The notes under the pieces: generated by a model
Databases searched by the model: none
Told to the model about the DNA's origin: nothing
Seen by the model: the letters and a program-made list of their open reading frames with translations, nothing else
Made by a program: the position numbers and the translations under genes
DNA from: Sphingorhabdus lutea
GTDB lineage: Bacteria > Pseudomonadota > Alphaproteobacteria > Sphingomonadales > Sphingomonadaceae
DNA length: 64,000 nt
Direction: 5' to 3'
Assembly: GCF_001889025.1 (NCBI RefSeq)
Contig: NZ_CP018154.1
Coordinates: 858,501-922,500 of the forward strand
Shown here: positions 1 through 36,868 of the stretch, piece after piece
How positions within the stretch are numbered: position 1 is the stretch's first letter
Layout of the letters: each line of letters opens with the position of its first letter

Positions 1-1838
1 TTCGCCTTGGCGGTCGCGCCATTTTGGAAAAGGCAACTGCCTCCATCCCCCCGGGAAGCCGTGTCGGTTTAATCGGCCGCAATGGGGCGGGTAAATCCAC
101 TTTGATGAAGGTCATGGTGGGGCAATTGGATGCGGATGAGGGCGAATTGAGCATGCCGCGCGGCACCAAATTGGGATATATTGCTCAAGAAGCACCGGCG
201 GGGGATGCCACGCCATTTGAAACCGTTTTGGCCGCCGATGTCGAACGCGCCATGTTAATGGCTGAATCCGAAAATTGCGAAGATATGGAAAGATTGGGCG
301 ATGTGCATGAACGTTTAATCGCTATTGATGCCTATGCCGCGCCATCACGTGCGTCGCGGATTTTAATCGGCCTTGGCTTTGATGAGGAAATGCAAAGCAG
401 GCCGCTGGATAGTTTTTCCGGCGGGTGGAAAATGCGCGTCGCGCTTGCCGCCTTATTATTTTCACAGCCCGATGTGCTGTTGCTTGACGAACCGTCAAAC
501 CATTTGGATTTAGAGGCGACGCTTTGGCTTGAAAATTTCTTAAAATCCTATCCCGCCACCTTAATCGTCATCAGCCATGAACGCGATTTATTGAACAATG
601 TGGTTGATAATATATTGCATTTACAGGGGGGGCGATTGACGCTTTATCCCGGCGGATATGATGATTTTGAAAAATTACGCGCTGAACGCGCTGCCCAGTT
701 AGAGGCGGCAAAGGCATCGCAAGATGCGCAAAGGGAAAGATTGCAAGATTATGTCGCGCGAAACAGCGCGCGGGCATCCACCGCGAAACAGGCGCAATCA
801 CGCGCCAAAATGTTGGCCAAGATGCAGCCCATTGCCGCATTGATGGATGATCCATCGCTTAGTTTTGCCTTTCCCGACCCCAAGGAATTGAAACCGCCGC
901 TCATCACCCTTGACCTTGCGGCGGTGGGATATAGTGAAAAACCGATATTACAGCGGCTGAACCTGCGCATTGATCCCGATGACCGTATTGCGCTGCTTGG
1001 CCGCAATGGCAATGGTAAGACGACTTTGGCGCGGTTGCTGGCTGCGCAGCTTACCCCTATGGAGGGGGAGGTGAACGCATCGGGCAAATTGGAAATTGGA
1101 TATTTCACCCAATATCAGGTGGAGGAATTATCCGGTGATGATACCCCAATTGAACATATGAGCCGCGCGATGCAGGGGGCAGCCCCCGGCGCAGTGCGCG
1201 CGCAGCTTGGCCGTTTTGGATTTTCGGGCGACCGCGCGATGAGCAAGGTCGGCAAATTATCGGGCGGGGAGCGGGCGCGGCTTGCCCTTGCCCTTGTCAC
1301 GCGCTCAGCACCCCATTTATTGATTTTGGACGAACCGACAAACCATTTGGATGTTGATGCGCGTGAGGCATTGGTTCAAGCATTAAATGATTATCAGGGC
1401 GCGGTTATATTGATTAGCCATGACCGGCATATGGTGGAATTAACCGCCGATCGTTTGGTGTTGGTCGATGATGGCACCGCACGCGAATATAATGGCAGCA
1501 TGGAAGATTATATTGATTTTGTGTTGGGCCGTAATCAACCCAAAGAAGGCGGCAGCGGCGCAAAGCTGGCCAAAAAGGATAAGAAACAGGCGAAAAAAGA
1601 CCGCGAAGCCGCCCGTTTATTAAAAACAGAGGTGGCCGAGGCCGAAAAAGCCATGGCAAAAATTGAAACCCAAATTTGCGATATAGACGCCGCCTTGGCC
1701 GAGCCCAAAATGGCCAAAGGCAATCTTGCCACATTATCCATGGGGGAGCTTAGCATAAAGCGTGCCGCCCTAGTCGATGATTTGGCGGCGGCGGAAAATA
1801 AATGGTTATCCCTAAATGAGAAATTAGAAATTTTATAA
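1..1838 (+). CDS. ABC-F family ATPase (Uup/YheS/EttA type), 5' end cut by window
   Basis: Cytosolic ABC-F protein with two nucleotide-binding domains and no membrane segment; family members act on ribosomes or in DNA/translation housekeeping. The reading frame is open from base 3 (RLGGRAILEK...), so the true start lies upstream of the window. Visible in order: Walker A GRNGAGKST, signature FSGGW, Walker B LLLDEPSNHLD, a charged interdomain linker, second Walker A GRNGNGKTT, signature LSGGE, Walker B LILDEPTNHLD, then a Lys/Ala/Glu-rich C-terminal tail of about 80 residues likely to form a coiled coil, as in Uup and YheS. That tail argues for Uup/YheS over EttA. The exact subfamily is not decided; the ABC-F call is firm. 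The stop is TAA at 1836-1838. Confidence 0.93.
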   Translation, partial: RLGGRAILEKATASIPPGSRVGLIGRNGAGKSTLMKVMVGQLDADEGELSMPRGTKLGYIAQEAPAGDATPFETVLAADVERAMLMAESENCEDMERLGDVHERLIAIDAYAAPSRASRILIGLGFDEEMQSRPLDSFSGGWKMRVALAALLFSQPDVLLLDEPSNHLDLEATLWLENFLKSYPATLIVISHERDLLNNVVDNILHLQGGRLTLYPGGYDDFEKLRAERAAQLEAAKASQDAQRERLQDYVARNSARASTAKQAQSRAKMLAKMQPIAALMDDPSLSFAFPDPKELKPPLITLDLAAVGYSEKPILQRLNLRIDPDDRIALLGRNGNGKTTLARLLAAQLTPMEGEVNASGKLEIGYFTQYQVEELSGDDTPIEHMSRAMQGAAPGAVRAQLGRFGFSGDRAMSKVGKLSGGERARLALALVTRSAPHLLILDEPTNHLDVDAREALVQALNDYQGAVILISHDRHMVELTADRLVLVDDGTAREYNGSMEDYIDFVLGRNQPKEGGSGAKLAKKDKKQAKKDREAARLLKTEVAEAEKAMAKIETQICDIDAALAEPKMAKGNLATLSMGELSIKRAALVDDLAAAENKWLSLNEKLEIL

Positions 1839-1901
1839 GCAATATTTAAGGCTTTACGTAATAATATTTTTTTGCCATCACCCGCGATGGAGAGAAAATT
1901 T

Positions 1902-33309: not shown

Positions 33310-33348
33310 ATTTGGACCAATTGCGGCCATGGTAAAGGAATGAATATA

Positions 33349-34620
33349 ATGGTGGATAAAATGCTCACCAATTTTGATTTTAATCAACGGATGCTTATCC
33401 TTGCCATGGCTATTGGCATGGTTGTGGGCGCTCTTTCCATGCTCATTCCTGTATATTGGTTGGAAATTGTTACCGGATCATTGGGCATATCGGAAATTAT
33501 TCCCGCCACCGCCGCCCCATTGGGGGATAAGGCACGGGCGTTAATTGCATTTGGTTTTGGGGTGTTGGCAATTGCCGCATCCTTTATTTTCCTGTCCCGT
33601 TTTAATATTGGCCGTCAGGTAAAATCCAATATTTCGGATAAAAATGCGCCGGATAAAGCGCAGGTAGAAGAAAAAGTTGTTTCGCAAGAATATGCCCCCA
33701 ATGCCGCAATTGAAGCGGATATTTTAACAAGACCGAAAGCCGATCTTTCAACAGATAGTCCCGCGCAAAGCCCCACGGCATGGGGGAATGTTAAAAAGCT
33801 ATTTTCTGGCATTAACTTGCCTAAAATGAAGCTGCCCAATTTTAATATGCCCAAGTGGGGCAGGCAGAATGAAGAAGATATATATGAAATACAGGACTTG
33901 CCGCCGCGTATGCGATCCATTGAGGCTGGCGGAGAAAAAAAACGCGCACCCATTGCCGCGTCGCGTGATTTAAGCGGGGTCAGTTTGGTCGATAACATAT
34001 CGGATATGCCCGATTCGCCGCTTATCAAAAAATTCAATCTTTCCGAACCAAAGCAAGAGGTTGCGGTAGAGATTTACGAAGATTTACCGCCCGTACAACA
34101 TGAAGAAGCAGTGCAGCATGAAGTAGCAATGCAGCATGAAGAAGCAATGCAGCATGAGCAATTGCCACAAGAGGCCAAGCCGCAGGATAAGGGCGGGGAT
34201 TCAATGGATAATTTAGCCAAAAATTTAGAAGAAATATTGGCCAAACGCGCCGCGTTAAGGGCGGAAATTGCCGCAATGGCCCAGCCCGTAATTGAACCAA
34301 AATCCGAAATAGTTTCTGAAATAGATTCTGAAACAGTTCCCGAATCCAGCGCAGAATCAGCAGAATCAATGGTCGATGCATTTGTTCATAAAAATGATCC
34401 GCAACCGCCCCATTTTCTGACCGAAAAAATAATATCTGATGATGTCATGGATGAACAGGATTATCGACCAAAATTATCGGTGATTAAAGGATTAGAAACA
34501 CCGATGACAAAACCTGCCCATGATCAGTCCGTTGACATGTCAAGCGATTTGCCAAATGACAGGGCGCTGCTTTCTGCATTACACACATTGCACCGAATGA
34601 AGGCGCAGGGGCAGGAATAA
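33349..34620 (+). CDS. Membrane-anchored hypothetical protein with a Gln-His-Glu repeat
   Basis: 423 aa from ATG 33349, which has AAAGGA 9 nt upstream; the earlier ATG 33340 is too close to it. Two hydrophobic helices (about residues 14-35 and 62-82) anchor the N-terminus; the remainder is a long, charged, low-complexity cytoplasmic tail. Residues about 250-271 are a six-residue tandem repeat QHEEAM x 3.7, encoded by an 18-bp DNA repeat (34096-34161). The C-terminus (RALLSALHTLHRMKAQGQ) is likely helical. I do not recognise the family. It follows the XrtA glycosyltransferase by 39 bp on the same strand. Confidence 0.75.
   Translation: MVDKMLTNFDFNQRMLILAMAIGMVVGALSMLIPVYWLEIVTGSLGISEIIPATAAPLGDKARALIAFGFGVLAIAASFIFLSRFNIGRQVKSNISDKNAPDKAQVEEKVVSQEYAPNAAIEADILTRPKADLSTDSPAQSPTAWGNVKKLFSGINLPKMKLPNFNMPKWGRQNEEDIYEIQDLPPRMRSIEAGGEKKRAPIAASRDLSGVSLVDNISDMPDSPLIKKFNLSEPKQEVAVEIYEDLPPVQHEEAVQHEVAMQHEEAMQHEQLPQEAKPQDKGGDSMDNLAKNLEEILAKRAALRAEIAAMAQPVIEPKSEIVSEIDSETVPESSAESAESMVDAFVHKNDPQPPHFLTEKIISDDVMDEQDYRPKLSVIKGLETPMTKPAHDQSVDMSSDLPNDRALLSALHTLHRMKAQGQE
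34096..34161 (+). repeat. 18-bp tandem repeat inside the membrane-anchored hypothetical
   Basis: Unit CAGCATGAAGAAGCAATG appears at 34096-34113, 34114-34131, 34132-34149 and partly at 34150-34161, with few substitutions. It is in frame and encodes QHEEA(M/V). Copy number may vary between strains. Confidence 0.85.
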
Positions 34621-34672: not shown

Positions 34673-35023
34673 TTATGCCGCATTTATCATTAAAATATTG
34701 ATCGAAAATTCGGCATGTTCCGGCCCATAATCAATATCTTTGCCAATTGATATTTCCCCTACAAATTGACGTTTGGCGGCAAATTCCATGTCGCCAATTT
34801 CCAAATTTAACTGGGCAAGGCGCGATTTAATATTTTGCCCATGCGCGCTGATCAATAAAATATGTTCATCACCATCAAATGTCGCGCTTTGCCAATCGCG
34901 TTGTTGATGTGAAATCAGCCCAAGGCGAAGACCTGAAAATTTTTGCAACTGGGCCAATATCGCGCAAATGGGATCATATTGTCGCGGTGGTGATGAAGGA
35001 TTATTTTTCTGTGTTATGATCAT
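34673..35023 (-). CDS. Hypothetical protein, TAATG-coupled to the small HTH-like protein
   Basis: 116 aa. The chosen ATG at 35023 overlaps the last base of the upstream stop (TAATG on the minus strand), which is typical of translational coupling; an alternative upstream frame to 35044 is not needed. I do not recognise the family. It starts MIITQKNNPSS, has a hydrophobic-helical middle (DPICAILAQLQKFSGLRLGLI), the DEHILLISAHGQNI segment and ends with an alternating beta-like stretch. No signal peptide or TM helix. It is the second gene of a predicted SOS-controlled operon. Confidence 0.7.
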   Translation of the reverse strand: MIITQKNNPSSPPRQYDPICAILAQLQKFSGLRLGLISHQQRDWQSATFDGDEHILLISAHGQNIKSRLAQLNLEIGDMEFAAKRQFVGEISIGKDIDYGPEHAEFSINILMINAA

Positions 35024-35211
35024 TAGGCGGCCTTTTTTAAGCAATTTTCATCAATAAATTGACGTATTTTTCTCTGCATTGCGCTGCGCACTTCGCGGCC
35101 CATGCGCATATCCAGCACCAGACGGGGGTCATGCGCCACCAATCGGCCAAATTTAGTTGGCGGCATGTCGTTTTCGCGTAAAAATTTTTCAACTTCCCTT
35201 AACATTTCCAT
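35023..35211 (-). CDS. Small DNA-binding-like protein (62 aa)
   Basis: From ATG 35211, with AAGGAG 8 nt upstream, the protein is 62 aa. MEMLREVEKFLRENDMPPTKFGRLVAHDPRLVLDM looks like a helix-turn-helix: an amphipathic helix, then PPTKFGRL (turn and recognition helix), then DPRLVLDMRMGREVRSAMQRK with basic residues. Similar small proteins are annotated as hypothetical in alphaproteobacteria. I infer DNA binding, as it faces the S24 regulator. The open frame extends upstream to 35253, but that part has no ribosome binding site. The stop TAA overlaps the ATG of the next gene. Confidence 0.75.
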   Translation of the reverse strand: MEMLREVEKFLRENDMPPTKFGRLVAHDPRLVLDMRMGREVRSAMQRKIRQFIDENCLKKAA

Positions 35212-35268
35212 TTGCCATTCTCCTTTGGAATTGTTGTATTTTTCTTCCTCCACTCTCTAACTTTATGT

Positions 35269-35307
35269 GATTCTGATCATAGAATCGGATGAGAACAAAA
35301 TAAGAAC
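35269..35307 (-). promoter_or_regulatory. Predicted LexA (SOS) box and promoter for the small HTH operon
   Basis: GAAC-AAAATAA-GAAC (35293-35307) is an exact match to the alphaproteobacterial LexA direct repeat (GTTC-N7-GTTC, here read on the minus strand). A -10 candidate TATGAT lies at 35276-35281 (minus strand) and a weak -35 TTATTT (35298-35303) falls within the box. The perfect inverted repeat GATTCT-GATCAT-AGAATC at 35269-35286 surrounds the -10. These point to a repressed minus-strand promoter. LexA itself is not in the window. Confidence 0.7.
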
Positions 35308-35330
35308 AAACAAGAAATGACGTAAGAAAT

Positions 35331-35364
35331 CCTACTTGTCTAGGAAAAATCCTATTGCTATAGT
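35331..35364 (+). promoter_or_regulatory. Leaderless promoter of the S24 regulator with flanking palindromes
   Basis: TTGTCT (35336-35341) and TATAGT (35359-35364) are separated by exactly 17 bp. The expected start point, 7 bp after the -10, is base 35371, the A of the ATG itself; there is no ribosome binding site. The palindrome CCTA-N6-TAGG (35331-35344) covers the -35 and an imperfect copy at 35351-35363 covers the -10; their centres are 20 bp apart, about two helix turns. An autoregulatory operator is likely. Confidence 0.65.
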
Positions 35365-35370
35365 AAAAAA

Positions 35371-36069
35371 ATGGAAAGCAACGAAATTAGGTCAAATTTG
35401 GATCAAATTATCCATGAACGGGGCGAAAGCTATGTGATTTTGTCACGGCTTATTGGCCGAAATGACGCGTATATTCAGCAATTTATTAAAAGAGGCAGTC
35501 CCAAGAAATTAGAGGAAAGCGACCGGCGCACCATATCGCGATATTTGGGCGTTTGCGAATCAATATTGGGCGGGCCAGAACGAATAGAACCAAATAATCC
35601 AAATAATAATGCGCCCAAAAATATCAATTTGGCCGAACATCCAAATGCGGACATGGTTACCGTGCCGATATTGGATATTGGCGCATCGGCGGGGGCAGGC
35701 GCATTTGATCGGGCCGAAATGGGCGGGGAATATCCGCGCGGCCATGTGGCATTTGACCCATTATGGCTGCGGTCAAAGGGGATGAGGTCGCATAAATTAT
35801 CCATGATATTGGTAGAGGGGGAGAGTATGGAGCCGACCCTGCCAAATGGGGCGGATATTTTAATTGATCATCAACAAAGCATTATTGAAAATGGCCATAT
35901 TTATGTGCTGCGCCATGAGGGGCAAATTTTGGTAAAAAGGTTGCTGCGCGATAAAAATGGCGGCCTTTTGATAAGGTCGGATAATAATGATTATGCCGAT
36001 ATATATTTGACAGATATTGACAATATTCAAATTATTGGCCGTGTTATCTGGTATGGTCGCTATATATAG
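35371..36069 (+). CDS. S24-family LexA/CI-like transcriptional regulator
   Basis: 232 aa. N-terminal region with the helical DNA-binding segment ESYVILSRLIGRNDAYIQQFIKRG, then an Asn/Pro-rich linker and the C-terminal peptidase S24 domain. The catalytic Ser152 in VEGESMEPTL and Lys189 in ILVKRLL are both present, spaced by 37 residues as in LexA. The cleavage site could be one of the Ala-Gly pairs in ASAGAGAFD (about 106-111), a little farther (42-44 residues) from the Ser than in LexA (35). It is either self-cleaving or a regulator that has lost that. It is transcribed from a predicted leaderless promoter and faces the small HTH operon. Confidence 0.88.
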   Translation: MESNEIRSNLDQIIHERGESYVILSRLIGRNDAYIQQFIKRGSPKKLEESDRRTISRYLGVCESILGGPERIEPNNPNNNAPKNINLAEHPNADMVTVPILDIGASAGAGAFDRAEMGGEYPRGHVAFDPLWLRSKGMRSHKLSMILVEGESMEPTLPNGADILIDHQQSIIENGHIYVLRHEGQILVKRLLRDKNGGLLIRSDNNDYADIYLTDIDNIQIIGRVIWYGRYI

Positions 36070-36163
36070 CCGGAATTTATAAAGGCCAATTTATGATGAA
36101 AGAATTGCCGTACCTATCGAGACAGGCTTGCATGGCGCGAACAAATTGTCCACATAGGTGGTT

Positions 36164-36868
36164 ATGAATAATGTCACATCAAATTTAAATAATGGCCAAC
36201 CCAAAATACAGGCCGAACCGCCATTAAAAGTTGCGATTATTCCGGTAACCCCGTTGCAGCAAAATTGTTCGCTCATTTGGTGCACAAAAACCAATAAGGC
36301 CGCGTTAATCGACCCTGGAGGCGATTTGCCAAAATTAAAATCCGCCATCGCGCAATCGGGCGTGGAAATGGAAAAAATCCTTATCACCCATGGGCATATT
36401 GACCATTGTGGGGAGGCTGGCATTTTGGCGAAGGAATTGGGCCTGCCGATTGAAGGACCGCATGAGGATGATCGTTTTTGGATTAGCCGACTTGACGATG
36501 ATGGCAAAAAATATGGCATAAATGGCGAAATTTTTGAACCAGACCGTTGGTTATTACATGGTGATAAGGTGACGGTGGGGGATTTGGAATTGGATGTCAT
36601 CCATTGTCCCGGCCACACGCCCGGCCATGTTATTTTTTATCATGCGCCATCGCGCCTTGCCGTGGTGGGTGATGTATTATTCCAAGGGTCAATTGGCCGC
36701 ACCGATTTTCCCATGGGCAATCATGGCGATTTAATCAATGCGATAACCACCAGATTATGGCCGCTGGGCGATGATGTTACCTTTGTGCCTGGACATGGTC
36801 CGGCCAGCAATTTTGGCCATGAAAGACGCACCAACGCCTTTGTTGCCGATCATGTGCTGGCCAGATAA
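36164..36868 (+). CDS. MBL-fold metallo-hydrolase (glyoxalase II / YcbL-like)
   Basis: 234 aa from ATG 36164 (GTG 36158 is an alternative; AGGTGG sits too close for either). The metal motif THGHIDHCGEA (His76, His78, Asp80, His81), CPGHTPGH and GDVLF (bridging Asp) and a final VPGHGPAS are complete. The domain resembles YcbL type II glyoxalases and other small thiolesterases of the MBL superfamily. Substrate is likely a glutathione thioester or a small lactone, but unproven. Intact on its own, after the S24 regulator gene, in the same direction. Confidence 0.88.
   Translation: MNNVTSNLNNGQPKIQAEPPLKVAIIPVTPLQQNCSLIWCTKTNKAALIDPGGDLPKLKSAIAQSGVEMEKILITHGHIDHCGEAGILAKELGLPIEGPHEDDRFWISRLDDDGKKYGINGEIFEPDRWLLHGDKVTVGDLELDVIHCPGHTPGHVIFYHAPSRLAVVGDVLFQGSIGRTDFPMGNHGDLINAITTRLWPLGDDVTFVPGHGPASNFGHERRTNAFVADHVLAR

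Follow-up and report, generated by a model that had tools for sequence, protein, structure and literature searches.

A candidate LexA-controlled CI/Cro-type switch with a tail-terminator-like third protein in Sphingorhabdus lutea

In the CI/Cro switches of temperate phages, operator-like sites lie between a repressor gene of the S24 type and a small XRE-like gene that diverge from each other. SetR and CroS of the SXT/R391 elements are an SOS-responsive pair of S24 and Cro-like proteins. A locus of similar design is found at positions 34673 to 36069 of a 64,000-nucleotide stretch of Sphingorhabdus lutea DNA (contig NZ_CP018154.1, positions 858,501 to 922,500 of the forward strand), referred to here as the window. 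At this locus, the gene for an S24 repressor diverges from a small operon encoding proteins of 62 and 116 amino acids (aa). The locus is probably a domesticated phage-type CI/Cro switch placed under LexA, with an output protein that resembles phage tail terminators. Its order is kept across many sphingomonad genera, and it appears to link the SOS response with a switch of phage type and a phage structural protein put to new use, which raises the question of what the cell gains from a lone tail-terminator-like protein made just as prophages are induced.

The 232-aa LexA/CI-like S24 repressor is encoded on the plus strand at 35371-36069. The minus strand carries the genes for the Cro/XRE-like 62-aa protein (35211-35023) and the 116-aa protein (35023-34673), which share one base, within TAATG, at 35023; these coordinates agree with those in a preliminary description made from the sequence of the window. 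The locus differs from temperate-phage switches in that it is chromosomal, has a conserved gene order, carries a LexA box on its Cro side and encodes a 62-aa protein that has no match in annotated phages; it is a conserved host locus rather than part of a phage. No phage genes adjoin it in the region of the window that was read (Pfam and reading frames), and the same sources place no conjugation gene beside it, which together with the tail-terminator-like third gene sets it apart from SetR/CroS. By analogy, its working may resemble that of phage immunity switches and of the SOS-responsive switches of conjugative elements. Caulobacter RogA (CCNA_00080) offers a further comparison: the portion of its report used here (PMC9632790) describes a LexA/CI-like repressor with a helix-turn-helix (HTH) domain and an S24 domain, GGA/TCC inverted-repeat sites, action on gafYZ and a lack of catalytic residues. 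According to that description, the S24 protein of the window resembles RogA in its domains and its GGA/TCC inverted repeats, whereas it keeps the Ser-Lys dyad and has a different half-site spacing.

Conservation was surveyed in 99 genomes, including that of S. lutea itself, of which 54 encode the 62-aa protein and 81 have an S24 match. The survey yielded 66 places with a 62-aa gene that were read and 65 that could be aligned (locus L136 could not). Among these 65, there are 46 loci with a divergent S24 gene and a neighbouring gene for a metallo-beta-lactamase (MBL)-fold protein, which define the core loci, 15 with a divergent S24 gene and no MBL gene, and four with no S24 gene in the stretch. 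In the window, the MBL-fold hydrolase (PF00753) is encoded at 36158-36868 on the plus strand, and this conserved neighbour is regarded as context outside the switch proper. A hidden Markov model detects the third gene in all 46 core loci; a script picked a frame for it in 44 of them, and in 38 of these there is a four-base overlap between the start of this gene and the stop of the 62-aa gene. A scan of titled genomes confirmed at least 492 relatives; the best 80 of these comprise 80 loci with the third gene, 78 with S24 and 67 with MBL, and titles in the scan include Sphingorhabdus, Sphingomonas, Sphingobium, Novosphingobium, Erythrobacter and Qipengyuania. The preliminary description had proposed a domesticated or stand-alone module and had suggested looking for conservation of the trio, and the order of the S24, 62-aa and third genes is indeed kept, which supports such a module.

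All four genes are constrained, the third gene least. For 19 hand-picked close pairs, the third gene has a median ratio of nonsynonymous to synonymous substitution rates (dN/dS) of 0.30 (18 usable pairs), compared with 0.16 in the 62-aa gene, 0.067 in the S24 gene (18 usable pairs) and 0.025 in the MBL gene. This purifying selection, like the order of the trio kept in many genera, speaks against a prophage remnant that is in decay and no longer serves a function, an explanation that is very unlikely even though all three proteins have phage-type relatives.

Control of the small operon by LexA is well supported by sequence. The box GTTCTTATTTTGTTC (GAAC-N7-GAAC) lies at 35293-35307 in minus-strand orientation, as both the window and a motif count confirm, and places upstream of the operon the GTTC-N7-GTTC motif published for Caulobacter LexA in the part of the report consulted (PMC12700426). 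The bare pattern is not enriched: the window contains one match versus 0.64 expected, a number reached by 45 of 100 shuffles, and the whole genome contains 28 versus 35 for a reversed control pattern. The site in full does exceed chance, in that its exact 15-mer is present three times in the genome, with the two further copies upstream of uvrA and of a dinB-type gene. Among the 27 other genome matches, eight lie at the start, or a short way upstream of it, of genes read as lexA, recA, uvrA, dinB, rmuC, radA, pcrA/uvrD and mmcB. Of these genes, lexA, recA and radA score above NCBIfam cut-offs and mmcB above the Pfam cut-off, the dinB (E 2e-52) and rmuC (E 1e-56) matches fall below cut-offs, and uvrA and pcrA are cut by the end of the locus.

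In 38 of the 46 core loci, which are not independent because many are close relatives, an exact GTTC-N7-GTTC in either orientation lies between the S24 gene and the 62-aa gene, and 36 of the 38 share the orientation seen in the window; the corresponding shuffle control has a mean of 0.12 and a maximum of 2. The eight core loci without the box comprise two from the same genus that are one mismatch off and six from other genera that are two or three off. The box is also present in 58 of the best 80 titled-genome loci (19 in the window's orientation, 39 reversed) and in 11 of the 15 S24/62-aa pairs without MBL (10 reversed). Thus, the earlier proposal of a LexA-controlled locus is supported both by boxes at SOS genes of the same genome and by retention of the box in most relatives that keep the genes. 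The placement of the box at the -35 element of a minus-strand promoter was not confirmed, in that a promoter scan returned no minus-strand candidate and four plus-strand matches, fewer than the 6.1 expected. Just downstream of the box, an inverted repeat, GATTCT-ATGATC-AGAATC, was noticed by eye at 35269-35286, and GATTCG recurs at this place in many relatives. Elsewhere, at locus L024 (G000:C1:1942810-1945824), a LexA-type box, GTTCATGTTTTGTTC, adjoins a reading frame (1553-1858, plus strand) for a 102-aa protein, another candidate SOS gene, whose product has an N terminus that looks membrane-like by eye and no NCBIfam or Pfam match.

The second component of the switch is the S24 protein, which matches PF00717 with an E-value of 5e-23 and is one of two proteins in the genome whose S24 domain exceeds the family cut-off, the other being LexA. 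A BLAST comparison of the two returned nothing significant. In annotated phages, the S24 protein is best matched by repressors; a sequence search of the PDB returned a single match, to a designed protein, which was rejected as spurious. Ser152 and Lys189 are intact, as first described, and are conserved in 75 and 76, respectively, of 76 ungapped distinct rows of the S24 alignment. An Ala-Gly pair is present at 107-108 and again at 109-110, with Ala107 found in 75 and Gly108 in 74 of 78 rows.

Between the divergent genes, half-sites with the arrangement TCCTA-N6-TAGGA-N4-TCCTA occupy 35330-35354 on the plus strand and form the putative operator of the S24 protein. They overlap a promoter-like site before the S24 gene (TTGTCT-17-TATAGT, 35336-35364, plus strand), of a kind that is no commoner than in shuffles. 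The form TCCTAGAC..GTAGGA is retained in 44 of the 46 core loci and in 73 of the best 80 titled-genome loci. The genome contains exactly one copy of TCCTAGACAAGTAGGA, and the only other place within three mismatches has three; for TAGGA-N4-TCCTA, one further exact place exists, within a reading frame. Because TCCTAGACAAGTAGGA is found only once, the S24 protein would, by motif, watch only its own locus. The conserved dyad, the cleavage-type Ala-Gly site and the locus-specific operator-like site support the idea, raised in the preliminary description, that the S24 protein is a second, possibly cleavable switch, and make the operon a candidate for a double lock by LexA and a second S24 repressor.

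Direct family searches with the 62-aa protein returned no match. Its structure model has a mean predicted local distance difference test score of 91.2, and the structural neighbours of this model include the Cro protein of phage 434 and other XRE proteins, matched weakly (best E 0.68) and at the level of predicted fold only. The protein therefore has a Cro/XRE-like predicted fold, and at that level the HTH-like character first ascribed to it is borne out. In the proposed mechanism, LexA at 35293-35307 and the S24 repressor at 35330-35354 would keep the small operon off in the undamaged cell. DNA damage would inactivate LexA and probably lead the S24 protein to cleave itself, after which the operon would yield its Cro-like 62-aa protein and, through translational coupling, the 116-aa protein. 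The 62-aa protein would then probably turn down the S24 gene.

The 116-aa protein has no direct match in Pfam, PHROG, NCBIfam or PADLOC, the last of which also returned no defence system for its two partners. A single-sequence search recovered only the protein itself, and a search of the relatives gave weak matches in nine of the 99 genomes, its own included. No PHROG is matched by more than two of 78 family members, every name shown for 120 listed relatives is 'hypothetical', and literature searches found no paper on the third gene. The curated PF11367 tail-terminator model matches neither the window protein nor any of 20 family members, and a search of the S. lutea genome with this model up to E 10 recovered only the copy in the GTA-like cluster described below, not the 116-aa gene. 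The connection to tail terminators comes instead from standalone genes near S24 genes in other families of the order; all four of those tested match PF11367. Profile comparison links the 116-aa group to this syntenic PF11367 group with a probability of 96.6 over 71 columns, and an outgroup terminator model and the predicted fold add further links.

The closest known proteins are the tail terminators (PF11367, PHROG 176, lambda gpU fold), and the 116-aa protein has its predicted fold and a W-x-S-x-TF-x-G core in common with the syntenic PF11367 proteins. It differs from known terminators in being standalone, shorter and fast-evolving; no tail gene cluster surrounds its gene, whose neighbours are the regulators, the MBL gene and others. 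By synteny, profiles and predicted fold, the 116-aa protein is a short, fast-evolving, standalone relative of phage and gene transfer agent (GTA) tail terminators. Since the curated model misses it and no tail cluster is present, it is termed a terminator relative here and kept out of PF11367 itself. The earlier statement that the locus has no phage structural genes is consequently not right, since the 116-aa protein itself relates to such a family. The same homology and predicted fold point away from a damage-response module in which the 116-aa protein inhibits cell division, as the preliminary description had suggested, although no search was aimed at division links. The LexA box before the operon would suit such a role, and an SOS-induced division inhibitor, SidA, exists in Caulobacter according to the part of the report consulted (PMC12700426). 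This explanation was dropped after the terminator link emerged and is highly improbable.

The genome of S. lutea also carries a GTA-like or related prophage-like cluster (L173, G000:C1:2328000-2347900), with genes for terminase, portal, protease, capsid, a PF11367 terminator, tail tube, DUF2460 and hub proteins. Given this cluster, and given that outgroup counterparts of the 116-aa protein resemble cluster terminators, the 116-aa protein might serve the GTA-like particle of the cell as a tail terminator, either in reserve or specifically upon damage. However, the cluster has its own PF11367 terminator, a motif search of the genome did not find the operator-like site at the cluster, and a tree, with long branches, separates cluster terminators from 116-aa-type proteins. 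The distribution of the cluster was followed with a hub protein (48 of 99 genomes) because the GTA_TIM marker failed even in this genome and matched none of the 99. Within the genus, 33 good-quality genomes divide into 16 with the trio and the marker, 16 with the trio only and one with neither, with the reservation that the marker may miss diverged clusters. The gene is thus neither in the cluster nor retained only with it, and an obligate GTA part is disfavoured because 16 of the 32 trio-positive genomes have no GTA-like marker; the spare-terminator explanation as a whole is unlikely.

If the locus is a domesticated switch with a terminator-like output, the likeliest action of the 116-aa protein, tentatively, is on the tail-tube assembly of a co-resident phage-like element; alternatively, it may have found a new use as a partner for both regulators. 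The latter idea can be taken further: the locus would be only a switch, and the 116-aa protein, having ceased to be a tail protein, would partner the 62-aa protein or the S24 protein in regulation, for example as an anti-repressor. The invariable presence of the third gene beside the regulators in the 46 core loci and its shortened product, without a tail cluster, are consistent with this explanation. It is nonetheless doubtful, in that the evolution of the third gene greatly outpaces that of its presumed partners and the gene is missing from 10 of the 15 loci without MBL, so the S24/62-aa pair can do without it. A more pointed version of action on tails, rather doubtful in itself, is an SOS-timed host weapon, in which the standalone terminator-like protein would cap the nascent tail tubes of induced resident phages and spoil virion assembly. 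If true, the host itself would encode a block on phage morphogenesis, controlled by LexA and by a second S24 repressor, and the fast evolution of the protein would reflect an arms race; its dN/dS fits an arms race or loose constraint and does not choose between them.

Loci beyond the core set were also examined. Within the order, 17 S24 loci without a 62-aa gene were fetched, of which 11 have a terminator-type frame and six do not; TAGGA half-sites are common by eye in the portion of these loci that was read. At the level of the class, the outgroup terminator model matches 32 of 289 genomes. The 30 loci fetched (of 35 rows) have no S24 gene within about 3.4 kb, so the association of S24 with a terminator is seen here only within the order, and the third-gene model matches none of their reading frames; the 15 read in detail mostly look by eye like phage or GTA clusters.

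Relatives of the 62-aa protein are encoded at 25 loci on viral contigs, eight with an S24 frame and three with a third-gene frame in the stretch read. On three such contigs (L287, L290 and L293), S24/62-aa pairs with a CCTAGAC site border on phage-like genes. The pair of L290 has host genes (CstA) on its other side and may or may not be carried by the phage, and in contigs of this type a prophage may have inserted just behind the 62-aa gene. Three plasmid records were found, one of which (Sphingomonas, L174) has the S24, 62-aa and third genes. On a Bradyrhizobium plasmid (L176, NZ_CP094518.1, 14984-25136), a divergent pair made up of an S24 gene and a 62-aa relative lies among recombination and hypothetical genes that resemble a phage early region by eye. 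Two S24/62-aa pairs (L128 and L130) that have their LexA box reversed and lack the third gene adjoin a relaxase-like TraI_2B gene, matched at these two MBL-less pairs once above and once just below the cut-off. This arrangement, a point of likeness to SetR/CroS, suggests that the same S24/62-aa switch is present on mobile elements. Finally, the locus in the window is flanked at 33340-34620 by a gene for a 426-aa protein with short MQHEEA-type repeats, and similar proteins adjoin several loci of the same genus.
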